A stretch of DNA of 35,372 nucleotides, taken from the NCBI GenBank assembly GCA_018057705.1, contig JAGPDF010000048.1, positions 1 through 35,372 on the forward strand. Direction: 5' to 3'. Source of the DNA: Thermoanaerobaculia bacterium. Its GTDB lineage: Bacteria > Acidobacteriota > Thermoanaerobaculia > Multivoradales > JAGPDF01. A program made the position numbers and the translations under genes. Under the pieces are notes generated by a model, which saw nothing but the letters and a program-made list of their open reading frames with translations, was not told where the DNA came from and did no database searches. This document shows, one piece after another, positions 3,373 through 14,815 of this stretch (position 1 is the first letter of the stretch; each line of letters begins with the position of its first letter).

Positions 3373-5607
3373 ATGTCCCCGCTGCCGATTCGCGCCCTGC
3401 ACCTCGCCCTCGTCGCCTCGATGCTCCCGGGGCTCTCCTGCACGGGCGAATCGTCCGCCCCGGGAGTCACCGGGGGCGAGCCGACGGCGGCACCCGTGGC
3501 TGGCGCGGTCTCCGCGACGCCCGCCTCCCCTTCGAGCCCGGCAGCCCCGGCGACTCCGGCAAGCACCGTGAGTCCCGCGCTGTCGGGGACCGACGCCGAC
3601 AAGATCCTCGTCGTCTGGGAGTCGAATCGCTCAGGGGAGTTCCGCATCTGGCGCCAGGACATTCCCGGCGGCGAGCCGCGACAGATCTCCCCCGAGGAGC
3701 CCGGGCGCGACCACTGCTGCGCGAAGCTCTCGCCGGACGGCAGCCGCCTGGTCTACTTGAGCCTCCCGGGTGGAGCCCGCAAGTACGCCCAGGACGCCGG
3801 CCCGCTCCATCTGGTCGACGCCGACGGCGGACGGGACCGGATTCTCGTGCCCGCGGCCCGCCACTACGGCGAGCATCGTGCCGCGGTCTGGTGGGGCGAG
3901 GACGAGCTGGTCTACATCGATGGCAGAAGCGCGACGCAGTTGCTCCGCCTATCGGCCGGGTCGACCACCGAGCTCATCGGGGCGCGCGCCGCGAGCGCGA
4001 CCGCCCATCCCGGCGAAGGTTGGCTCGTGGCTCCCGGCGGGCAGGTCGTCTCCGGAAATACGCCCACCTTCTCCGACCACACCGAAGGCGAGGGGGTTCG
4101 AATCCGGCCGTCGCTCGGCGGCTGCCAGCCTGCGTTCTCGCTGGACGGCCGCTTCGCGGTCTGGTCGGCGGGTGCCGGCGGCCCGATCGACGCCCTAGAT
4201 CTCGCCACGCGGCGCAGTTGGACCGTGCTCGAGAAGGGCGATCCGCACCTCCCCGCGGGCCGCGGCTACAGCTACTTCCCGGCGCTCTCGAACGACGCCT
4301 CGCTGCTCGCCGTGGGGGCCTCCGCCGGGGAGCACGACCACTTCCGCGCCGACTACGACATCTACGTCCTCGAGCTCGATCCGTCGACGCTCCTGCCCGC
4401 CCCCTCCGGCGCGAACAGCGCGCGCGTGGTGGCGCCCCATCCGGGGGTCGATCGCTTCCCCGATCTCTATCGGCCGGCCCGTCCGGTGGATCGCGCCGGC
4501 GCGAGGGGCGTCCAGGCTTCGGGCACTTCGGCCACCGCGGTCCCTGCGGCCGCCGAGCCGCACGCCGGCGACGGACTCACCCGGCGCGGCCTGGTCTTTC
4601 TCTGGCAGCGCGCCGACGCCGAGAATCGCGTCGCCGCCGACAGCTCGAGCGAGACCCTGCAGCCGCAGGGTCTCGCCTGGGTCGACCGCCACCGGGCGCT
4701 CGCCCTCGGCGGCGGCTCGTTCTCGGCCGCCGAGGAGACCGCTCGCCGGCTCGCCGAGACGCTCGTCGCGAAGCACCAGATGACGCTCTCGCTCCTCGTC
4801 ACGCCCGCCTCGCTCCGCGAGCGCGGCGCGATCGTCGCCTTCTCGGACGGTCCGCGGGCGCGCAACTTCGTTCTCCGCCAGGAAGGCGACCAGGTCGTCT
4901 TCGCCCTGCGCACGTCGGACAGCGCAAAAGAGGGGCTCGCAGTCCCGGTCGCAAGGCTCGCGTCGACCGCATCGACCGCCCCGACGCACCTGCTGCTCAC
5001 CTTCTCGCCCGGGCGCCTGGCCGTCTTCGTCGATGGCAAGAGCCCGGGCGCCGCCGCGGAGCCGATCGCCCTGCCCGGGGACTTCTTTCACTGGCGGCCC
5101 CGCGCCCTCCAGTTCGGCGCCGAAGCGAAGTCCGAGGAGCGCTGGCACGGCACGGTCGCCGAGATCGCCATCTGGAATCGCCCACTTCAGGCGACCGAGA
5201 TCGCCGCCGAGGCGGCGCGCGTCCGGGCGCTCGTCGACGCGCGCCCGGCTGCTCCGCGGGCCGAGCTCGAGTTGCGCCTCCTCGCCTCCTCGCCGGCGCC
5301 GGGGCTCGAGGAGATCTCGCCCTACCGCGAGGCCCTCGTGGTCGACGAGCTCGAGGTCGTCCGGCAAATCTCGGGGCCGCCGGTCGCCGCACCCCGGATC
5401 CGCGTCGCCCGCTGGGCCATCCTCGACGGTCAGATGCTCGCGCCGCCGCGCGTCGGCGAAGTCCGCCGTCTGGTGGTCGAGCCGTTCGCGGCGCAGCCAC
5501 AGCTCGAGCCGTTCTATCTCGCCGACCGCCTGCCGGCGGCCTCCGGACATCCCCTCTATTTCGATCTCGGGGCGACTTCGGCGGCCGAAGCCAGCGCCAC
5601 GCCCTGA
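3373..5607 (+). CDS. Probable lipoprotein with PD40/TolB-like propeller and C-terminal LamG (concanavalin-like) domain
   Basis: The product is 744 aa from the ATG at 3373. I chose this start because it gives a signal peptide with a hydrophobic stretch ending GLSC (an imperfect lipobox) and follows the TATACT box; the open frame continues upstream, but only inside pilB. A low-complexity Ala/Pro/Ser/Thr linker (about residues 25-75) follows. Then come WD40/PD40-like strands (IWRQDIPGGEPRQIS, LSPDGSRLVYLS) to about residue 380. A LamG-like jelly roll at about 430-620 contains HLLLTFSPGRLAVFVDGK and the typical closing strand GTVAEIAIWNRPL. A C-terminal region of about 120 residues is unassigned. 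The stop is 3 nt before the MBOAT gene, so the two are surely cotranscribed. It may bind the glycan that the two downstream enzymes modify; that is inference. Confidence 0.8.
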   Translation: MSPLPIRALHLALVASMLPGLSCTGESSAPGVTGGEPTAAPVAGAVSATPASPSSPAAPATPASTVSPALSGTDADKILVVWESNRSGEFRIWRQDIPGGEPRQISPEEPGRDHCCAKLSPDGSRLVYLSLPGGARKYAQDAGPLHLVDADGGRDRILVPAARHYGEHRAAVWWGEDELVYIDGRSATQLLRLSAGSTTELIGARAASATAHPGEGWLVAPGGQVVSGNTPTFSDHTEGEGVRIRPSLGGCQPAFSLDGRFAVWSAGAGGPIDALDLATRRSWTVLEKGDPHLPAGRGYSYFPALSNDASLLAVGASAGEHDHFRADYDIYVLELDPSTLLPAPSGANSARVVAPHPGVDRFPDLYRPARPVDRAGARGVQASGTSATAVPAAAEPHAGDGLTRRGLVFLWQRADAENRVAADSSSETLQPQGLAWVDRHRALALGGGSFSAAEETARRLAETLVAKHQMTLSLLVTPASLRERGAIVAFSDGPRARNFVLRQEGDQVVFALRTSDSAKEGLAVPVARLASTASTAPTHLLLTFSPGRLAVFVDGKSPGAAAEPIALPGDFFHWRPRALQFGAEAKSEERWHGTVAEIAIWNRPLQATEIAAEAARVRALVDARPAAPRAELELRLLASSPAPGLEEISPYREALVVDELEVVRQISGPPVAAPRIRVARWAILDGQMLAPPRVGEVRRLVVEPFAAQPQLEPFYLADRLPAASGHPLYFDLGATSAAEASATP

Positions 5608-5610
5608 CCG

Positions 5611-7065
5611 ATGGTCTTCAGCTCGCAGCTCTTCCTCTTCTGGTTCCTGCCGGCGGCGCTGGCCTTCTACTACCTCGCGCCGCGGCGGCTGAAGCATCTC
5701 ACCCTCACGCTCTTCTCCTACGTCTTCTACGGCTGGGCGAATCCATCCTTCTCGGTCCTGCTCCTGATCTCGACCCTGATCGACTGGATCGCCGGGCTCG
5801 TGATGGCCGGGACCACGCCCTGGAGCCGCGCACCGCTCGAGGCTCTGCCGAAAGGGGTGCGTCGCAACCGGCGCGAGCGCTTCGCCCTCCTGCTCTCCGT
5901 GTCCTCCAACCTCTCCCTCCTCGGCTTCTTCAAGTATTTCAACTTCGCCGTCGACAGCTGGAACGGCATCGCCACGGCGATCGGAGTGGACGTCGCGAGC
6001 CTCGACATCGCCCTGCGCGTGACGCTGCCGCTGGGCATCAGCTTCTACACCTTCCAGTCGATGAGCTACGCCATCGACGTCTATCGCGGCGACGCCAAAC
6101 CGCTGCGCAATTTCGTCGACTTCGCCTGCTTCGTCTCGATGTTCCCGCAGCTCGTCGCCGGTCCGATCATCCGCTTCTCGGAGGTCGCCGACCAGCTCGC
6201 GAACCGCACGCACACGCTGGCCAAGTTCGCGCGCGGCGTCGCCTTCTTCTCGGTCGGCATGGCGAAGAAGGTGCTCCTCGCCAACCCGTGCGGGCAGATC
6301 GCCGACACCGTCTTCGACGCCGGAGCTCCGACGGTGCTCCAGGCCTGGCACGGCGTCGTGGGCTACGCCTTCCAGATCTACTTCGACTTCTCGGGCTACT
6401 CCGACATGGCGATCGGCCTCGGCCTCATGTTCGGCTTCGTCTACGCCAAGAACTTCGACTCGCCCTACCAGTCGCAGTCGATCACTGAGTTCTGGCGCCG
6501 CTGGCACATCTCGCTCTCCTCCTGGCTGCGCGACTACCTCTACGTGCCGCTGGGCGGAAACCGCAAAGGGGTGCGCCGCACCTACATCCACCTCGGTCTC
6601 ACCATGCTGCTGGGCGGCCTCTGGCACGGTGCCTCGTGGAACTTCGTTCTCTGGGGTGCCTTTCACGGTGTGCTGCTCGCGGCCGAGCGCGCCGTCGGCG
6701 TCGAACGGCTCTATGGCTGGATGCCACGTGCCGCGCGCGTCGCCACGACCTTCTCGCTCGTTCTGGTGAGCTGGGTCTTCTTCCGCGCCGCCGACCTCCC
6801 GGCCGCGCTCGCCTATCTCGGGAGGATGTTCGGCCTCGGCGCGGCAGGCGAAGGGGCGCCGCTCCTCTCCGGCCTGCTGGCGAGTCCCTATCTGGCGCTC
6901 TCCTTCGTCATCGCCGCGGCCGTGGTCTGGGGCGCCGAGCAGAGCTGGACCTGGACGCGGGAGCTCACGCCGCTGAAGATCGCGCTCGCCCTCGCCCTCC
7001 TCGTGACGGCGATCGCCGCGCTCTCGACGCAGGATTACAACCCCTTCATCTACTACATCTTCTGA
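5611..7065 (+). CDS. MBOAT-family membrane O-acyltransferase (AlgI/PatA/DltB-like)
   Basis: This 484-aa polytopic membrane protein belongs to the family that moves acetyl groups across or to the membrane for O-acetylation of exported polysaccharide. It has about ten hydrophobic helices beginning at LFLFWFLPAALAFYYLA. The family signature is present: FWRRWHISLSSWLRDYLYVP (H299) and GLWHGASWNF with the catalytic-type His H339. The QSITEFWRRW stretch is typical of AlgI-type members. The length is usual. It sits 3 nt after the LamG gene and overlaps the next gene by one base (TGATG), so the three form an operon. Pairing with an AlgJ/AlgX-like SGNH protein supports polysaccharide acetylation rather than teichoic-acid D-alanylation. 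The glycan itself is unknown; no glycosyltransferases are in view. Confidence 0.93.
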   Translation: MVFSSQLFLFWFLPAALAFYYLAPRRLKHLTLTLFSYVFYGWANPSFSVLLLISTLIDWIAGLVMAGTTPWSRAPLEALPKGVRRNRRERFALLLSVSSNLSLLGFFKYFNFAVDSWNGIATAIGVDVASLDIALRVTLPLGISFYTFQSMSYAIDVYRGDAKPLRNFVDFACFVSMFPQLVAGPIIRFSEVADQLANRTHTLAKFARGVAFFSVGMAKKVLLANPCGQIADTVFDAGAPTVLQAWHGVVGYAFQIYFDFSGYSDMAIGLGLMFGFVYAKNFDSPYQSQSITEFWRRWHISLSSWLRDYLYVPLGGNRKGVRRTYIHLGLTMLLGGLWHGASWNFVLWGAFHGVLLAAERAVGVERLYGWMPRAARVATTFSLVLVSWVFFRAADLPAALAYLGRMFGLGAAGEGAPLLSGLLASPYLALSFVIAAAVVWGAEQSWTWTRELTPLKIALALALLVTAIAALSTQDYNPFIYYIF

Positions 7066-8372
7066 TGAGCCAACCCGGAATCCACGCTTCCCAACCCTCG
7101 AGGGAAGACCAGGCGGTCGCCGAAATCGCCGCGACGCGCCTCTCCCGGACCGGCGGCCTCGTCCTCACCCTCGGGCTGCTCGCGGCGATCGCCGTCGGTG
7201 CCCTGCTGGAAGCGGCGCGCGTCCGCCGCGGCGAGGCGACGGCGTTCGCCGGCGGGGCGCCGATTCCGACGCCAGGGGAGTTCCTCGATACCTGGCGTAC
7301 CGCCGGTCCCCTGGCCGCGAATCGCGCGCTGCGTGAGGGCATCGCCGCCCTCGAGGACCGGCTCGGCCGCGAATCCGCCCTTTCGGCCGCCCTGCGCCCG
7401 GCCGCCCAGACGCTGCTCGCGCGCCATCTCGGCTACGGCAACAGCCAGGTGCTCGTCGGCCGCCAGGGCTGGCTCCACTTCCGTACCGCCTTCGACTACC
7501 TCACCGGCCACCCGTTCCTCGCCGGGAGCGAGCTCGCGCGCCGCCGCGCCCACGGCACCCGCTACGCCGTCCCGGAGCCCGACCCCGTGCCGGGCCTGCT
7601 GGAGCTCCACGACGTGCTCGCGGCGCGCGGCATCGAGCTCGTCTTCTTTCCCGTCCCGGTCAAGGCGCAGGTTCACCCCGAGACCCTCGCGCGGCTGGGC
7701 GGCATTGGCCCGGTGGGCCCGGCGAACGAATCGTTCCCGGAGCTCGTCCGCCGCCTGGGCGAGGGCGGGCTCCCGGTCTACGACGCGTTGCCCGACCTGC
7801 GGGCGGCGGCTCTCGCCGGCGAGCGGCTCTACCTCGCGACCGACACGCACTGGAATTCCGCCGGCATGCGCGTCGCGGCTTCCGGGTTGGCGCGCTTCCT
7901 GGCCGAGACGACCGCCCTGCCGCAGCGTCCGCCGGCCGGCCTGCGTCGGCGCAGCTTCGCTCACGAGCTCGAGGGAGATCTCACGCGGCTCCTCGGCGCC
8001 GGCGTCCGCGGCCCGGTCTTTCCCAACGAGTCGATCGAGCTCGACGAGGTCGTCGGCTTGGGCGGCGTGCCCTACGACGCCGCATCTGCGGCGCCGGCAA
8101 CGGCGAGCGACGTCCTTCTGTTGGGCGACAGCTACTCTCTCGTCTTCTCCTCGGCCGCGGGGAGAAGCGCCGGCTTCGCCGAGCAGCTCGCCTTCGCGCT
8201 CGATCGCCCGATCCGGCGTCGCGCCAAGGTCGCCGCGAACAATCTCTCCGATCGCGTGCAGTGGCTGCGGGAGGATCCGTCACTCCTTTCGGGCGTGCGC
8301 GTCGTGATCTACGAAGTCACCGCGCGGGCGCTCTCGTCGGCCGACTGGTCGGGCGCCGGACTCGAACCTTGA
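7065..8372 (+). CDS. AlgJ/AlgX-like SGNH O-acetyltransferase, membrane-anchored
   Basis: The product is 435 aa. The start is the ATG overlapping the MBOAT stop by one base. A single transmembrane anchor (about residues 28-48, GLVLTLGLLAAIAVGALLEA) puts the rest in the periplasm. The catalytic motifs of the ALGX/AlgJ branch are present: DTHWN (D260, H262) and LLLGDSYS with nucleophile S356. In that family they transfer acetyl groups delivered by the MBOAT partner to the polysaccharide. The segment GNSQVLVGRQGWLHFR matches the usual N-terminal part of the domain. It closes the three-gene unit; the next gene begins 20 nt later with its own strong ribosome site. The family is confident; substrate and linkage are unknown. 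Confidence 0.88.
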   Translation: MSQPGIHASQPSREDQAVAEIAATRLSRTGGLVLTLGLLAAIAVGALLEAARVRRGEATAFAGGAPIPTPGEFLDTWRTAGPLAANRALREGIAALEDRLGRESALSAALRPAAQTLLARHLGYGNSQVLVGRQGWLHFRTAFDYLTGHPFLAGSELARRRAHGTRYAVPEPDPVPGLLELHDVLAARGIELVFFPVPVKAQVHPETLARLGGIGPVGPANESFPELVRRLGEGGLPVYDALPDLRAAALAGERLYLATDTHWNSAGMRVAASGLARFLAETTALPQRPPAGLRRRSFAHELEGDLTRLLGAGVRGPVFPNESIELDEVVGLGGVPYDAASAAPATASDVLLLGDSYSLVFSSAAGRSAGFAEQLAFALDRPIRRRAKVAANNLSDRVQWLREDPSLLSGVRVVIYEVTARALSSADWSGAGLEP

Positions 8373-8392
8373 ATTCACCCACGGAGGAAACG

Positions 8393-8929
8393 ATGATCGA
8401 CCCGAACGACCTCAGATACCCCATTGGCAAGTTCGCCTACGCAGCGGCCTATACCCCGGAGCTCCGCGATCTCCACCTCGATCAGATCGCCGCCTGTCCG
8501 GCAGAGCTCCGGCGCGCAATCGACGGACTCTCTCCCGGCCAGCTCGACACGCCCTATCGGGACGGCGGCTGGACGGTGCGGCAGGTGGTGCATCACCTGC
8601 CCGACAGCCACGTGAACGCCTACGTGCGGCACAAGCTCGCAGCGACCGAGGATCAGCCGACCATCCGCCCCTACAAAGAGGCGCTCTGGGCCGAGCTCCC
8701 CGACGCCAGGAGCGCCGACCCGACGCTTTCGCTCGCGCTCCTCGACGCCCTCCACGCGCGCTGGACACACTTCCTGCGCGCACTCCCGCCGGAGATGTTC
8801 GAGCGCACCTTCCTCCATCCGGACCTGCCGGGCCCGGTCCCGCTGGCGAAGAACATCGGCATGTACGCCTGGCACGGCCGCCACCACGTCGCCCAGATCG
8901 ACGCCCTGCGCCAGCGCAACGGCTGGTAG
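8393..8929 (+). CDS. DinB-superfamily metal-dependent thiol transferase, BstA/YfiT type
   Basis: The product is 178 aa, the normal length. The start is the ATG at 8393 behind a clear GGAGG. The family forms four-helix bundles with a nickel or zinc site of three His. Here H67 (in VVHHLPDSH) and H161/H165 (in WHGRHHVAQI) match the YfiT pattern closely. YfiT/BstA homologues transfer bacillithiol or another low-molecular-weight thiol to electrophiles, mainly in the cytoplasm for detoxification. The lead-in RYPIGKF and the GGWTVRQVVHHLPDS segment are typical. It is probably the last gene before the hairpin terminator at 9013-9052. It may be read through from the acetylation cassette, but a functional link is unlikely. 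Confidence 0.88.
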   Translation: MIDPNDLRYPIGKFAYAAAYTPELRDLHLDQIAACPAELRRAIDGLSPGQLDTPYRDGGWTVRQVVHHLPDSHVNAYVRHKLAATEDQPTIRPYKEALWAELPDARSADPTLSLALLDALHARWTHFLRALPPEMFERTFLHPDLPGPVPLAKNIGMYAWHGRHHVAQIDALRQRNGW

Positions 8930-9012
8930 CGCCTGCGCCGCTGGTCCGCCTCCAATCGGCGGCGGAACCGGCGCCTCCGTCACCGAACTGAGGGAAGCTC
9001 GACCCTTCCTGA

Positions 9013-9052
9013 CCGCTGTATGACGCCCGTCATGCAGCGGTTTTTGCTTTTC
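9013..9052 (+). terminator. Strong rho-independent terminator (12-bp stem, T-run)
   Basis: CCGCTGTATGAC (9013-9024), loop GCCC, then GTCATGCAGCGG (9029-9040) pair over 12 positions with a single wobble, followed by TTTTTGCTTTT. It lies 83 nt after the thiol-transferase gene and ends transcription before the heme-copper operon. The inner part is also an inverted repeat, ATGAC-N4-GTCAT, with the spacing of FNR/DNR-type sites. Confidence 0.85.
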
Positions 9053-9058
9053 TCCTAA

Positions 9059-9070
9059 GTTCCCGGGAAC
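9059..9070. promoter_or_regulatory. Perfect 12-bp palindrome upstream of the heme-copper operon
   Basis: GTTCCCGGGAAC is a perfect palindrome centred 40 nt before the first ATG of the operon (9105) and just after the terminator T-run. Only about 50 nt separate the terminator from the gene, so the promoter must lie around here and the palindrome is well placed for an operator. I do not recognise the regulator. Confidence 0.35.
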
Positions 9071-9104
9071 GCGCAACACTGGCTTTCCCGCGAAGGAGGG
9101 AGAC

Positions 9105-9266
9105 ATGAACGAACCGGGCAACACCACCGAGGCGATTCCGCTCGGACAGCGTCTGTTCGATCGGCCGTTTCTGCTGCTCGCCGCCGGACTGATCGTGATG
9201 TTCCTCTTCTATACCGGATGGGGGCTCTGGGAGATTCTCAGCCTGCCCGCCGGAAAGCTACCGTAA
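9105..9266 (+). CDS. 53-aa single-helix membrane peptide, likely small subunit of the heme-copper complex
   Basis: This short gene has an excellent ribosome site (AAGGAGG, 5 nt before the ATG). It encodes a polar N-terminus, one transmembrane helix (about residues 21-43, PFLLLAAGLIVMFLFYTGW) and a short tail ending GKLP. Its stop overlaps the AAGGAGG of the CuA subunit gene 11 nt downstream, so the two are translated in series. Position and form match subunit IIa of Thermus ba3 oxidase, a one-helix peptide that supplies the helix missing from a short subunit II. Here subunit II has its own N-terminal helix, so the equivalence is inference. It is easy to miss in automatic annotation. Confidence 0.75.
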   Translation: MNEPGNTTEAIPLGQRLFDRPFLLLAAGLIVMFLFYTGWGLWEILSLPAGKLP

Positions 9267-9277
9267 GGAGGCCTGCC

Positions 9278-9901
9278 ATGGAATTCCATTCCGGCGTCGT
9301 CCCGCCGCAGGGCGTCTGGTGGCGCCCCGCAGGCAAGCAGGAAAAGCTCTGGGTCGCGATCGCTTTCGCCTGGTGCATGGTGCTCTTCGCCATGATGCCC
9401 TTCTGGCACATCAAGGGCGGTCAGAACCCCTCCGGCATTCGCAGCCGCGTGACGCCCGAAGACTTTCTGGCGCGCGTCTTCACCTTCGTCGAGGACTACA
9501 AAGTCAGCGAAGAGAATGGCATCCCGCTGGTCGCCCCGCCGCCGGGTAGCGACGTCTACCTGCTCGGCCAGATGTGGCGCTGGTATCCGGCGCTCGAGCT
9601 CGAGGAGGGCGTGAGCTACACCCTCCACCTCTCCTCGATCGACATCAACCACGGATTCAGCCTCTACCCGGCCAACATCAATTTCCAGGTCATGCCGGGC
9701 TACGACTACGGCCTGGTCATCAAACCCAACAAGCCCGGCGAGTACCGCATCGTCTGCAACGAGTTCTGCGGCGTCAACCATCACAACATGCTCGGCCGCA
9801 TCGTGGTCCGGCCGGCGAAACAGGTGGCGCAGGCAACCTCGCAGGGGACCCCGCAGACCCTGCAGATGACCCCGATACCGGCCCAGGAGACGACGCGATG
9901 A
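9278..9901 (+). CDS. Heme-copper reductase subunit II with complete CuA site
   Basis: The product is 207 aa; the ATG at 9278 sits behind the AAGGAGG overlapping the previous stop. One N-terminal transmembrane helix (about residues 24-42) is followed by a periplasmic cupredoxin domain. The binuclear CuA ligands are intact: H125 (DINHGF), then CNEFCGVNHHNM giving C160, E162 (backbone), C164, H168 and M171. It therefore accepts electrons from a periplasmic donor such as cytochrome c or a cupredoxin and passes them to the heme of subunit I. No cytochrome c domain is fused and no CXXCH is present. The last about 25 residues are a Gln/Thr/Pro-rich tail. Its stop overlaps the subunit I start (ATGA). 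Confidence 0.92.
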   Translation: MEFHSGVVPPQGVWWRPAGKQEKLWVAIAFAWCMVLFAMMPFWHIKGGQNPSGIRSRVTPEDFLARVFTFVEDYKVSEENGIPLVAPPPGSDVYLLGQMWRWYPALELEEGVSYTLHLSSIDINHGFSLYPANINFQVMPGYDYGLVIKPNKPGEYRIVCNEFCGVNHHNMLGRIVVRPAKQVAQATSQGTPQTLQMTPIPAQETTR

Positions 9902-11667
9902 GCACCATGGCCACCACTCCCGCCGCTGCCGGTTCCTCGAATCCCGACTCGGCGCTCTGGCGCCTTGCATCGCGTCTGTGCCCGGTGACCGGCCTCCGGG
10001 TCAACCGCGACTCGGAGCTCCTGGTGCGCTGGAACGCGGTCGTCGGGATCGTCTTCCTGCTGGTCGGCGTGGTCGCGGCGCTGCTCCTGGCGCTCACCCG
10101 CTGGCAAGCGGTGCAGCTCCTGGCGCCGACCTGGTTCTACCGCATCCTCACCCTGCACGGCCTCAACATGCTGATCTTCTTCATCATCTTCTTCGAGATG
10201 GCGATCCTCTACTTCGCCGGACCGATCGTCCTCGGATGCCGGCAACCGGCGCCCAAGCTCGCCTGGGCCGGGTTCAGTCTCATGCTCATCGGCGCTCTGC
10301 TGGTCGACGTCGTCGTGCTCATGGGCCGGGCGGACGTACTCTTCACCTCCTACGTGCCGCTCAAGGCGCATCCGCTCTACTACCTGGGCATCATCCTCTT
10401 CGCGGTCGGAGCGCTCATCGCCACCCTCCTCTTCTTCGCCGCGCTGGTCGTGGCGAAACGCGAGAAGAGCTACACCGGATCGATGCCGCTGGTCTCCTTC
10501 GGCGCGCTCACCGCGGCGATCATCGCGGTGATCACGCTGCTCCACGGCGCGGCGATCTACATCCCGACCTTCCTCTGGTCGATGGGGTACATGAACGTCG
10601 ACCCGGAGGTCTACCGCCTGATGTTCTGGGCCCTGGGACACGCCTCGCAGCAGATCAACGTCGCCGCGATGGTCTCGGTCTGGTACCTCATGGGCGGCCT
10701 GACGATCGGCGCCGTGGTGCTCAACGAGAAGGTGAGCCGCTGGGCGTTCGTCCTCTACGTGCTCTTCATCTCGATGGCCTCCGCCCACCACCTGCTGGTC
10801 GATCCCGGCTTCGGACCGGCGTGGAAGGTCTGGAACACCAGCTACGCCATGTACCTCGCGGTGCTTGCCTCGATGATCCACGGCTTCACGGTGCCGGCCG
10901 GCATGGAGACCGGCATGCGCTTGCGCGGCTTCGTCAAGGGCCGCTTCGAATGGCTGAAGAAGGCCCCCTGGTCGGACCCGGGATTCTCCGGGACCTTCCT
11001 CTCGCTGGTGATCTTCGGCTTCATGGGCGGCATCACTGGCGTCACCCAGGGGACCGAGCAGATCAACATCCTCGCGCACAACACGCTGCGTATCCCCGGC
11101 CACTTCCATGTCACCGTGGTCGGCGGCACGGCGCTCTCGTTCATGGCGCTCACCTACTACGTCATTCCCCTGATCTTCCGCCGCAAGGTGGCGTTCTGGG
11201 GCGCCGCCAAGTGGCAGCCGTACCTGTTCGCGATCGGCATCGTGATCCTCTCGATGTCGATGACCTTCGCCGGCAGCTTCGGCGTACCGCGCAGGAGCGC
11301 CGACATCTCGTTCGCCAAGGCGCCGTTCACGCTCGAGTTCCCGCCGATCGTCGACCTGCTGCTCGCCGGAATCGGCATCGGCGGCACGATCACCTCGATC
11401 GCTGTGCTGCTGTTCATCGCGATCGCCGTGAAATCGGTCTTCTTCGGCGAGAAGCTCGACTTCGCGGCGATGCAGCCGGGGATGCCGGGCGTGCCGCAGG
11501 GCGTGGTGAAGCTGCCTGCCCAGACCCATTCCGGCGAGAACGCCGAAGCGGTCCACAAGAGCGGCGCTCCGGGCACGATCGTTCTGGTTTTCGTCTTCCT
11601 GGCGGTCTTCATCCTCTACTACTTCGCCAACTGGAAGGTCCTGTCGATGATCTGGAAGATCGGCTGA
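9898..11667 (+). CDS. Heme-copper superfamily subunit I, B-family-like, lacking the active-site Tyr (candidate NO reductase)
   Basis: The product is 589 aa with 12 or more hydrophobic helices; it starts at the ATGA overlap. All six metal-binding His are present: H87 (LTLHGLN, low-spin heme), H248 (LGHASQQ, CuB or FeB), H297/H298 (AHHLLVDPG) and H402/H404 (PGHFHV). The AHHLLVDPGFGPAWK and HNTLRIPGHFH segments resemble Thermus ba3 (B family). The hallmark Tyr four residues after the CuB His (GHPxVY) is Gln252 in GHASQQIN. The cbb3-type alternative (six residues before the HH pair) is Ile291. Oxygen reductases need that cross-linked Tyr; B-derived NO reductases with CuA partners lack it. I infer NO reduction or another non-oxygen activity. 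Automatic tools will probably call it cytochrome c oxidase subunit I. Confidence 0.9.
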   Translation: MSTMATTPAAAGSSNPDSALWRLASRLCPVTGLRVNRDSELLVRWNAVVGIVFLLVGVVAALLLALTRWQAVQLLAPTWFYRILTLHGLNMLIFFIIFFEMAILYFAGPIVLGCRQPAPKLAWAGFSLMLIGALLVDVVVLMGRADVLFTSYVPLKAHPLYYLGIILFAVGALIATLLFFAALVVAKREKSYTGSMPLVSFGALTAAIIAVITLLHGAAIYIPTFLWSMGYMNVDPEVYRLMFWALGHASQQINVAAMVSVWYLMGGLTIGAVVLNEKVSRWAFVLYVLFISMASAHHLLVDPGFGPAWKVWNTSYAMYLAVLASMIHGFTVPAGMETGMRLRGFVKGRFEWLKKAPWSDPGFSGTFLSLVIFGFMGGITGVTQGTEQINILAHNTLRIPGHFHVTVVGGTALSFMALTYYVIPLIFRRKVAFWGAAKWQPYLFAIGIVILSMSMTFAGSFGVPRRSADISFAKAPFTLEFPPIVDLLLAGIGIGGTITSIAVLLFIAIAVKSVFFGEKLDFAAMQPGMPGVPQGVVKLPAQTHSGENAEAVHKSGAPGTIVLVFVFLAVFILYYFANWKVLSMIWKIG

Positions 11668-11680
11668 CCGGATCGCCTCC

Positions 11681-12607
11681 ATGAGCACCCTGCCCGATCC
11701 AGCGCTTCCCCCGCATCGCTTCGCCGTCGGAGCCCTCTTCCTCTGGCTCGTGGTCACGGTCGGCTGGTGGGTCCTCGCGTTTGCGCCCCTGCCGGTACCG
11801 GCGGAGTGGCTGGATCAGGCAAGGGCGGTCTGTTTCGGCTCGTCGCCGTCCGGACTGCCGGACAATTACGGCTGGGTGCTCCTGGTTCTCGGACCGCTTT
11901 CGATGCTCGGTTTTCTGGTCGCCGTCTGGGGATCCGAGCTGCGCAGCGCTCTGCAGCGGGCGGCGCGCCGCTCGTGGGGCGTGGCGCTCATCGTCTGGAT
12001 CGCGGCCGGCCTCGTGGGCGGCAGCCTCTGGGTCGCCCGGCGCGTCGACGGCGCACGCCGCGCCGCCGCGGCCTATGCTCCCCTCGCCGAAGAAGAACGC
12101 CTCCCCGACGCCTATCCGCGGACCTTCGATCCCGCGCCGGCCCTGGGTCTCGTGGACCAGAACGGCGCGACTCTCGGGCTCCCCGAGCTCGCCGGCAAGA
12201 CCGTTCTCGTCTCTTTCGCTTTCGCGCACTGCGTCACGGTCTGCCCGGTGCTCATCGGTACTCTCCACGCTGCCATCGAGGGCCTGCCGCCGTCCGAGAC
12301 CGCGGTCGTCGTCATCACCCTCGACCCCTGGCGCGACACGCCCGCCAATCTTCCCGCTATCGCCAAGGCCTGGCGGCTCGAGCGCATCGCCGACGCCCGG
12401 GTGCTCTCCGGCGAGGTCGAGCAGGTGAACGCCGTGCTTGCGGAGTGGGGCGCGGGTGGCAATCGCGACGAAGCCACCGGGGAGATCAGCCACCCCGGGC
12501 TGATCTTCGTTGTCGACGCGCAGTCCCGCATCGCCTTCCGCTTCCTCAATCCACCGCGCGGCTGGCTGATCGATGCCGTCGCCCGCCTGCACCGCGAGGG
12601 CCGATGA
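11681..12607 (+). CDS. SCO1/SenC-type copper chaperone with a multi-helix membrane N-terminus
   Basis: The product is 308 aa. The C-terminal half is a thioredoxin-fold SCO domain with the copper ligands C184 and C188 (AHCVTVCP) and H271 (ISHPGLIF). SCO proteins deliver copper to, or reduce, the CuA cysteines of subunit II, which fits the upstream gene. The N-terminal about 130 residues are unusual for SCO: hydrophobic segments near residues 15-35, 65-85 and 100-120, with a loop CFGSSPSGLPDNYGW between the first two. Ordinary SCO proteins have one anchor helix. It starts 13 nt after subunit I and overlaps the next gene (ATGA), so it belongs to the operon. The catalytic domain is certain; the role of the extra membrane part is unknown. 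Confidence 0.88.
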   Translation: MSTLPDPALPPHRFAVGALFLWLVVTVGWWVLAFAPLPVPAEWLDQARAVCFGSSPSGLPDNYGWVLLVLGPLSMLGFLVAVWGSELRSALQRAARRSWGVALIVWIAAGLVGGSLWVARRVDGARRAAAAYAPLAEEERLPDAYPRTFDPAPALGLVDQNGATLGLPELAGKTVLVSFAFAHCVTVCPVLIGTLHAAIEGLPPSETAVVVITLDPWRDTPANLPAIAKAWRLERIADARVLSGEVEQVNAVLAEWGAGGNRDEATGEISHPGLIFVVDAQSRIAFRFLNPPRGWLIDAVARLHREGR

Positions 12608-14286
12608 GCTCGACTTCCCCTGTTTCCCGGCAGGACCCGCAGCTCGACGTCGGCTCGGCCGGTCCGCCGGCGGCGGTCCGCTTCCTGCGCTTCTGGACCG
12701 ATCCGGTCGAGCGCCTCCTCGACCGGATCTACGGTTCGAAGTGGAACCCGTTCTACCAGAGCGGCAACCTGGCCGTCCTCTTCTTCCTGGTCTCGCTCGC
12801 CTCCGGCCTGGTGCTCTTCCTCTGGTACCACATTGCCGATCCGTACGGCTCGGTGCGGGAGATTCACCAGGGCCTCCCGGGAGGGGCCTGGCTGCGCTCC
12901 CTCCACCGCTACAGCGCCGATCTCGCGGTGGTGGCGATCGTCGCGCACCTGGTACGCAAACTCCTCCAGGGGCACACCTGGGGACCACGGGCGCTCGCGT
13001 GGATCTCGGGCGTCGTCCTGCTTCTCGTCACCCTGTTCTGCGGCTGGACCGGCCTGGTCATGGTCTGGGACGTCCAGGGTCAGGGGATCGCCATCACCGG
13101 CGCCCGCCTGCTCGATCTCCTGCCGATCTTCTCGGAGCCGATCAGCCGCGCGTTCAGCGGCGACGTGCCGCCGGCCTCCTCGTTCTTCTTCATGACGCTC
13201 TTCCTGCACGTCGCCCTGCCGCTCGGGCTCGGCGCCCTGCTCTGGCTGCACGTCTCGCGGGTGTCGCGGCCGGCGCTCCTGCCGCCGCGCCCGATGATCC
13301 GCTTCCTGCTCGTCGTGATCGCCCTCGCGGCGCTCCTTGCGCCCCTGGAGCTCCCGCCGGCAGCCGACCTGCTGGCGCTGCCGGGGGTCGTTCCCACCGA
13401 TCTCCTCTACGCCTTCTGGCTGCCGCTCGCGCAGCGGCTCCCGGCCGGCGCCCAGGCGGCGCTCTGGGGCGGACTTCTTGTCCTGCTCTGCGCCGCACCC
13501 TGGTGGTGGCGGCCACGGCGCGCGATCTCGGTCTCGTCGGTCGACGAAAGCCACTGCACCGGCTGCACGCACTGCTACCAGGACTGCCCTTACGAGGCGA
13601 TCGCCATGGTGCCGCGGACGGTCCTCTCCCAGACCTCGCTGCTGGTCGCCCGGGTGGATCCCGACCGCTGCGTCGGGTGCGGGATCTGCGCCGCTTCCTG
13701 TCCGCCGATGGGTGTCGGACCCCAGAATCGCGACGGCCGCGACCAGCTCGCCGCCGCCCGTGCCTACCTCGACCTACGCCAACCGTACGGCCCGACCGGG
13801 CGCGAAGTGGTCCTCATCGCCTGCCGGAACGGCGCGGCCGCGCACCCGGAGACGCTGGCCCTTCCGGGCGTCGAGCTCTACCCGACCGGCTGCTCGGGCT
13901 CGGTCCACACGTCGGTCCTCGAACTGCTGATCCGCCGCGGCGTGGGAGGCGTTTTCATACTCTCCTGCCCGCCGCGCAACTGCTATTTCCGCGAGGGTCC
14001 GAAGTGGCTCGAAGCGCGCCTGGAGAACGGCCGCGACGCCGCCCTGCACCCCCGCGTCGACCGCCGGCGGGTGGCGTTCGCCAGCTTCTCGGCAACCGAG
14101 AGCGCCGCGATCTGCGCCGCGCTCGTCGCTTTTCAGGGCACGATCTCCGCGCTCGCGACGACCGCGGAAGCGGAGCCCGACCTCGAGGTCGTCTGCCTGC
14201 CACCTCTGGATCCGAACGCCCCCCCGACCCCGGCGCCCCCGGGCAACTCGAAGCGGTCAGCGCTGGTGGAGGTGACCGATGTCTGA
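12604..14286 (+). CDS. Cytochrome b - 2[4Fe-4S] ferredoxin - MvhD/FlpD-like domain fusion
   Basis: This 560-aa protein has three parts. Residues about 25-225 are a four-helix cytochrome b N-terminal domain with two His pairs spaced as in bc1/b6 proteins, H101-x13-H115 and H202-x13-H216, to bind two b hemes. Further helices lie at about 240-300. Residues about 310-370 form an 8Fe ferredoxin: C318, C321, C324, C328 and C356, C359, C362, C366. Residues about 400-500 resemble MvhD/FlpD, the [2Fe-2S] subunit linking hydrogenase or formate dehydrogenase to heterodisulfide reductase, with C407, C430 (PTGCSGSV), C455 and C460 (SCPPRNCYF). The tail is proline-rich. It starts at an ATGA overlap with the SCO gene. 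The Fe-S parts probably face the cytoplasm, so the protein could connect a soluble donor to membrane hemes or quinone; direction and partner are inferred. Confidence 0.88.
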   Translation: MSSTSPVSRQDPQLDVGSAGPPAAVRFLRFWTDPVERLLDRIYGSKWNPFYQSGNLAVLFFLVSLASGLVLFLWYHIADPYGSVREIHQGLPGGAWLRSLHRYSADLAVVAIVAHLVRKLLQGHTWGPRALAWISGVVLLLVTLFCGWTGLVMVWDVQGQGIAITGARLLDLLPIFSEPISRAFSGDVPPASSFFFMTLFLHVALPLGLGALLWLHVSRVSRPALLPPRPMIRFLLVVIALAALLAPLELPPAADLLALPGVVPTDLLYAFWLPLAQRLPAGAQAALWGGLLVLLCAAPWWWRPRRAISVSSVDESHCTGCTHCYQDCPYEAIAMVPRTVLSQTSLLVARVDPDRCVGCGICAASCPPMGVGPQNRDGRDQLAAARAYLDLRQPYGPTGREVVLIACRNGAAAHPETLALPGVELYPTGCSGSVHTSVLELLIRRGVGGVFILSCPPRNCYFREGPKWLEARLENGRDAALHPRVDRRRVAFASFSATESAAICAALVAFQGTISALATTAEAEPDLEVVCLPPLDPNAPPTPAPPGNSKRSALVEVTDV

Positions 14287-14815
14287 CCTGCGCGTCGCCA
14301 GCCTGCTGCGCCTCGGCCTGCAGGTCGCGGTGGCGCTCGGCCTGCTGCTCGGCGTGCAGGCACTGGCGCACCTGCCGCTCGGCGCGCCGCCCGAAGGGGC
14401 GGCCATCCGTCTCGCCGTTCGGACTTCGGCGGGCAAGCTCGAGATCTGTCGCGACGTCCCCGCCGAGGAGCTCGCGCAGTTGCCCATCCACATGCGCCAG
14501 TCGCGCATCTGCGAAGTGCAGCCGGTGGCGTATCGGCTCACGCTCAGCGTGGACGGCATGCCCTTGCGTGCCATCCATGCCGAACGCCGCGGCATGCGCA
14601 GTGACCGCGCCCTGGTCATCGACGATCTCGTGCCGGTCGCCGCCGGACGGCGGGCCCTGGTCGTCGCGCTCGAGCCGGAAGTGCCACCGGGCACGCCGGA
14701 GGCCGGCGCCGCGGTGCTGCCGCGCGGCGAGCTGCGGCAGACGATCGAGCTGCTGCCAGGGCGCATCGCTCTCGTGACCTGGGAGGCGAGCATAGGCCTC
14801 GCTGTCCGGCAGTAG
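14279..14815 (+). CDS. Unknown membrane-anchored protein at the end of the heme-copper operon
   Basis: This 178-aa protein overlaps the fusion gene by 8 nt, so it is translationally coupled to the operon. An N-terminal hydrophobic helix (about residues 10-32, LGLQVAVALGLLLGVQALA) anchors or exports it. The rest looks like a periplasmic beta-rich domain with two cysteines about 20 residues apart (KLEICRDVPAEEL and SRICEVQPVAYRL). I do not recognise the family. The position suggests an assembly factor or accessory subunit, and the two Cys could bind copper or form a disulfide. A function cannot be given. Confidence 0.8.
   Translation: MSDLRVASLLRLGLQVAVALGLLLGVQALAHLPLGAPPEGAAIRLAVRTSAGKLEICRDVPAEELAQLPIHMRQSRICEVQPVAYRLTLSVDGMPLRAIHAERRGMRSDRALVIDDLVPVAAGRRALVVALEPEVPPGTPEAGAAVLPRGELRQTIELLPGRIALVTWEASIGLAVRQ

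Follow-up and report, generated by a model that had tools for sequence, protein, structure and literature searches.

Our analysis identified, in a 35,372-nucleotide stretch of DNA from a Thermoanaerobaculia bacterium (hereafter, the window), a heme-copper subunit I that is very probably the catalytic subunit of a CuA-containing, B-family-derived NO reductase of the eNOR class, catalyzing the reduction of 2 NO to N2O. This assignment brings together an observed sequence, clade and genome linkage with a predicted catalysis, heme type and proton movement. The enzyme belongs to a known class, and what is less expected is the conserved partner module encoded beside eNOR. All genes of the operon (9105 to 14815) lie on the plus strand and are tightly packed, with the following features:

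9105 to 9266, plus strand: small, hydrophobic, IIa-like subunit of 53 amino acids with a single transmembrane (TM) helix, encoded immediately upstream of subunit II
9278 to 9901, plus strand: subunit II, 207 amino acids, one TM helix and a CuA cupredoxin domain (COX2/CoxB matches)
9898 to 11667, plus strand: subunit I, the probable catalytic heme-copper subunit of eNOR (translation of 9898-11664, 589 amino acids; COX1, PF00115, E = 2e-64)
10639 to 10662, plus strand: GHASQQIN helix segment of subunit I, with CuB ligand H248, Q251, Q252 (replacing Tyr) and N254; Q251, Q252 and N254 are invariant in 91 aligned sequences
10786 to 10791, plus strand: CuB ligands H297 and H298, from the alignment with family controls
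11101 to 11109, plus strand: heme ligands H402 and H404, from the same alignment
11681 to 12607, plus strand: SCO1/SenC copper chaperone (CuA assembly) with an N-terminal membrane part (PF02630, E = 9e-20), found in most related loci
12604 to 14286, plus strand: fusion of a cytochrome b6-like diheme membrane domain, two [4Fe-4S] motifs and an FlpD/MvhD domain (PF00033, Fer4, PF02662)
14279 to 14815, plus strand: membrane-anchored protein of 178 amino acids (C/HMR/C protein), with conserved C57, H71-M72-R73 and C78 in 65 aligned sequences

Between the operon and an upstream DinB/YfiT-like gene, at about 9012-9047, an inverted repeat (ACCGCTGTATGACG/CGTCATGCAGCGGT) followed by TTTTT was noticed by eye and resembles a terminator.

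First, we analyzed the active site of subunit I in an alignment of 121 sequences, including 91 eNOR-like, 15 B-family and 12 A-family sequences together with C-family controls. H87, H248, H297/H298 and H402/H404 are in register with the six ligand histidines of the A-, B- and C-family controls, as the original prediction had stated; the range that it gave, 10600-11115, holds for the sites from H248 to H404, whereas H87 (10156-10158) lies outside it. At H248+4, where A- and B-family O2 reductases carry the cross-linked Tyr, the window encodes Gln252 (codon 10651-10653). This position is Gln in 91/91 eNOR-like sequences (a number that includes near-duplicates and does not equal 91 independent events), with homologs as distant as ~46% identity, and Tyr in 15/15 B-family and 12/12 A-family sequences, which bears out the predicted replacement. 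In the HMM alignment, GHASQQIN lies over GHPIVYFW of Thermus ba3, placing Q252 opposite a Tyr that we take to be Y237 in ba3 numbering. The Tyr that marks C-family (cbb3) enzymes, six residues before the HH pair, is also absent, since the corresponding residue is I291, as had been proposed, and the cbb3 oxidase of the same genome has Tyr in this column. A sequencing error, chance or a pseudogene of the CuB site was rejected as the cause of Gln252, given the open frame, the invariant ligands and the occurrence of Gln in every eNOR-like sequence; the Tyr-to-Gln change is evolutionarily fixed among the relatives of subunit I. As Gln251, Gln252 and Asn254 are all invariant in eNOR, it is plausible that they line the active site. 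Three further residues, Y287, Y316 and His328 (the latter at the ba3 T312 position), are conserved in the eNOR sequences only. It should be noted that two sequences encoding subunit I of T. thermophilus plasmid eNORs (L034 and L161) have HFK in place of HFH, with Lys in the column of H404, whereas T. roseum and other eNOR sequences retain the heme ligand His in this column.

The missing Tyr is explained by the class of the enzyme, because Gln at exactly this position is what identifies an eNOR in the literature, while O2 reductases have Tyr, sNOR and CuANOR have Asn, gNOR has Asp and cNOR/qNOR have Glu (PMC8756737). The Asn or Asp typical of sNOR, bNOR and gNOR is therefore not the residue found here, and the active-site Glu, FeB and lack of CuA that characterize cNOR/qNOR are at odds with the Gln, the CuA subunit and the B-family placement. 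Gln at the Tyr position, six histidines, a CuA subunit II encoded directly upstream and a distinct B-family-related clade are instead the combination expected for eNOR. The description of this class is reportedly due to Hemp and Gennis in 2008 and to Murali et al. in 2024. In our phylogenetic tree, the Gln-bearing sequences form a single clade (SH-aLRT 99) that adjoins the B family and is separate from the Tyr-type B-family oxidases, as the placement suggested in the original prediction required; the eNOR-like members of this tree were recognized by their Gln rather than as named references such as the R. marinus enzyme. Gln-bearing homologs from a T. thermophilus plasmid, T. roseum (Thermomicrobium) and Defluviimonas fall inside this clade with 46-52% identity (46-47% for the Thermus and Thermomicrobium sequences), and relatives with 62-80% identity are found in Acidobacteriota, Gemmatimonadota, Bdellovibrionota, Myxococcota, Rokuibacteriota, Spirochaetota, Kiritimatiellota and others. 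Plasmid-encoded homologs from Haloarcula and Halomicrobium, considered as archaeal eNOR candidates, were discarded due to the presence of Tyr at the position. The closest solved structure by sequence is Thermus ba3 (E = 4e-40), the closest by profile are 7deg and ba3, and the AF2 model of subunit I (pLDDT 75.6) matches A- and B-family subunits with Z about 30. The proposed CuA-dependent NO reductase of B-family origin is thus supported by the CuA ligands, the Gln signature, the distinct clade and the co-occurrence and co-location with nitrite reductases described below. The alternative wording, that of a related unexplored enzyme, does not apply, as eNOR is already named and was counted among the biochemically characterized NO reductases in a 2024 paper that cites Murali 2024 (PMC11388526).

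Second, we analyzed the remaining subunits and the putative proton path. The CuA ligands of subunit II (H125, C160, E162, C164, H168 and M171) are invariant or nearly so in 83 eNOR sequences, and Glu22 of the same subunit is invariant in these and in 11 B-family sequences. Glu22 presumably corresponds to E15 at the K-channel entrance of ba3, whose channel residues we take as commonly numbered. According to the alignments, the K-channel positions Glu22 (subunit II), Tyr263 and Thr331 are kept, while Tyr is replaced by Gln252 and the residue at the T312 position by His328, so that protons would enter via a modified K-channel, a path suggested by residue conservation. A single K-like proton channel is what is predicted for the eNOR class. 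A similar small hydrophobic ORF lies upstream of subunit II in 80/81 related loci, and in example loci its C-terminus reads LFDRPFLLLxxGLxVMFxFYTxWGLxEIxxLPxxxLP.

In the proposed mechanism, electrons would pass from CuA of subunit II to the low-spin heme and on to the high-spin heme/CuB site, where 2 NO would be reduced to N2O, probably in an electrogenic reaction. The redox-active cross-linked Tyr, replaced by Gln252, would not be needed in eNOR because NO reduction takes two electrons and involves no O-O cleavage. The SCO protein is predicted to assemble CuA, and the cytochrome b-FeS-FlpD fusion protein may connect the eNOR complex, by electron transfer, with the quinone pool or with an FeS donor in the cytosol. 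Purified ba3 oxidases show slow NO reduction (PMC8780969), and therefore NO activity alone cannot tell the classes apart.

To what extent NO is the substrate can be judged from genome context. By NirK HMM count, 10/80 loci encode NirK at a distance of no more than about 8 kb from eNOR, including two examples that pass the NCBIfam cutoff (L062 and L083); NirS adjoins eNOR in genome G248, and in A. maritima eNOR and NirK are encoded in one operon (PMC4653789). Among 297 sampled Acidobacteriota genomes, 5/7 with eNOR versus 6/290 others encode a nitrite reductase (p = 5e-7), and 4/7 versus 28/290 encode NosZ (p = 0.003), comparisons that include few eNOR genomes and ignore shared ancestry. Likewise ignoring shared ancestry, nitrite reductase is present in 5/7 eNOR genomes versus 0/9 genomes with Tyr-type relatives (p = 0.005), and in 5/8 versus 3/51 in the set of relatives (p = 5e-4). 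This context supports NO as the probable substrate. Beta-propeller proteins that had been counted as NirK, joined via cytochrome c domains, were removed by the NirK HMM recount, and as clusters of neighboring ORFs were noisy from high-GC shadow ORFs, only NCBIfam-checked clusters were retained. In L062 (2612-4962), and also in L046, L052, L060, L067, L071 and L100, a NirK near eNOR adjoins a formylglycine-enzyme-like (EgtB/SUMF-type) protein, an arrangement that resembles nirK-nirV pairs.

The same data bear on the reading of subunit I as a B-family high-affinity O2 reductase that operates without the usual cross-linked Tyr and in which another residue, such as Y316, Y287 or a Trp, would donate the electron and proton. 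The B-family fold, CuA, the K-channel Glu and the six histidines are retained, and two Tyr are conserved in the eNOR sequences only; however, the known O2 reductases in the alignment keep the Tyr, the nitrite reductase enrichment is absent from genomes with Tyr-type enzymes, and aa3 and cbb3 oxidases are already present in the window genome, making this reading very improbable. A second question is whether an eNOR serves mainly to detoxify external NO rather than in energy-conserving respiration, which would leave the identity of subunit I unchanged. The window genome encodes a clade II nosZ, and neither nirK nor nirS was found above the cut-off in this 96% complete assembly; the enzyme may therefore use external NO, although another route or nir genes missing from the incomplete assembly may also account for its supply. 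Next to the loci of the Thermus relatives are genes of the Rrf2 and DUF542 families, which have known links to NO stress, and the last gene of the Defluviimonas locus encodes a hemerythrin; like the lack of a clear nirK or nirS in the window genome, both fit detoxification, and the Thermus genes also speak for NO as the substrate. Nonetheless, the organism's own nosZ, the frequent NirK/NirS partners elsewhere and the retained proton-channel elements fit respiration, and we regard detoxification as the main role as rather unlikely. The Defluviimonas copy (L036; NZ_CP156080.1, 13852-20598) is located on a plasmid and comprises the entire operon, a heme o synthase and the hemerythrin gene, which suggests that the module is mobile.

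Finally, we analyzed the cytochrome b-FeS-FlpD fusion protein. Its four bis-His heme ligands (H100/114/201/215) and twelve Fe-S cysteines (C317/320/323/327 and C355/358/361/365, along with C406/429/454/459) are conserved in 69 aligned sequences, being invariant or nearly so. The AF2 model (pLDDT 89.6) resembles solved structures of cytochrome b/b6, the HdrA ferredoxin and MvhD, and six TM helices precede the Fe-S part, whose clusters would be cytoplasmic provided that the N-terminus faces the cytoplasm, as it does in cytochrome b. The fusion protein is encoded beside eNOR in 72/80 GTDB loci, several of the remaining 8 being short contigs, and among the 297 Acidobacteriota genomes sampled it is present in 7/7 eNOR genomes versus 2/290 others (p = 1e-12). 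In one of these seven (G248), the sole copy is divergent and located on another contig. L162 and L163, the two exceptions lacking eNOR, have a split form of the protein; their operon (L162, 5141-9599; L163, about 5447-10125) encodes the cytochrome b-ferredoxin and FlpD parts separately, along with a Rieske protein and another cytochrome b. Genome G005, which appeared to encode the cytochrome b protein without eNOR, was discarded, as its contig ends inside the SCO gene. The fusion protein is the only PF00033 match detected in the window genome. The C/HMR/C protein gave zero matches in Pfam and NCBIfam, and in several loci it is encoded in the same frame as the fusion protein. Both proteins are missing from the Thermus and T. 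roseum eNOR loci, and the fusion is therefore not essential to every eNOR.

We tentatively propose, at somewhat less than even confidence, that the fusion protein supplies electrons to eNOR. It is also possible, albeit not probable, that the fusion and C/HMR/C proteins are not electron donors and constitute a CcoG- and SCO-like maturation system that reduces and delivers copper for CuA/CuB. The fusion gene adjoins SCO, the conserved Cys, His and Met of the small protein are ligands typical of Cu(I) carriers, and the absence of both genes at the Thermus and Thermomicrobium loci is also consistent with such a role, whereas the full bc/b6-type diheme membrane domain and the quinol-oxidizing context of the split homologs, whose neighbors are a Rieske protein and another cytochrome b, speak against it. 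The two roles are not mutually exclusive. Extending the electron-supply proposal, a more doubtful scenario is that eNOR forms a larger complex in many phyla, in which the C/HMR/C protein and the fusion, with its diheme cytochrome b, two [4Fe-4S] clusters and [2Fe-2S] FlpD domain, supply CuA directly with electrons from quinol or with low-potential electrons from the cytosol; if true, NO respiration would have an HdrA/MvhD-like input that does not depend on cytochrome c. A literature search covering work other than the primary eNOR paper (Murali 2024) found no description of the partner protein, and its novelty is provisional.

The usual annotation of eNOR genes is that of a cbb3-type or b(o/a)3 cytochrome c oxidase, and the potential of Acidobacteriota, Gemmatimonadota, Bdellovibrionota and others to produce N2O, a greenhouse gas and the predicted product of eNOR, is therefore overlooked; residue 252 cleanly tells eNOR from oxidases. 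In addition, the near-constant fusion partner poses a testable question, namely how electrons are delivered to eNOR in a genome with no other PF00033 protein detected.

Regarding known systems, the three parts of the partner match the solved families of cytochrome b6, the C-terminal ferredoxin of HdrA and MvhD, and no PDB entry was found with these parts in one chain. The window enzyme resembles Thermus thermophilus ba3 (B family; 1ehk, 3s8f) in fold (Z about 30, 25% identity), six histidines, CuA and the Glu at the K-channel entrance, and differs from it in having Gln for the cross-linked Tyr237, Asn for the Trp of the YFW motif and His at the T312 position. The bNOR (CuANOR), sNOR, gNOR and nNOR enzymes are also B-family-related CuA NO reductases; sNOR and CuANOR carry Asn and gNOR carries Asp where the window enzyme has Gln (PMC8756737). 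Finally, the window enzyme shares with described eNORs the Gln at the Tyr position, a CuA subunit II, a B-family-like subunit I and, in some genomes, linkage to nirK (PMC8756737), while the literature outside the primary paper (Murali 2024) names subunits I and II only, and the window adds to these the SCO, cytochrome b-FeS-FlpD and C/HMR/C genes.
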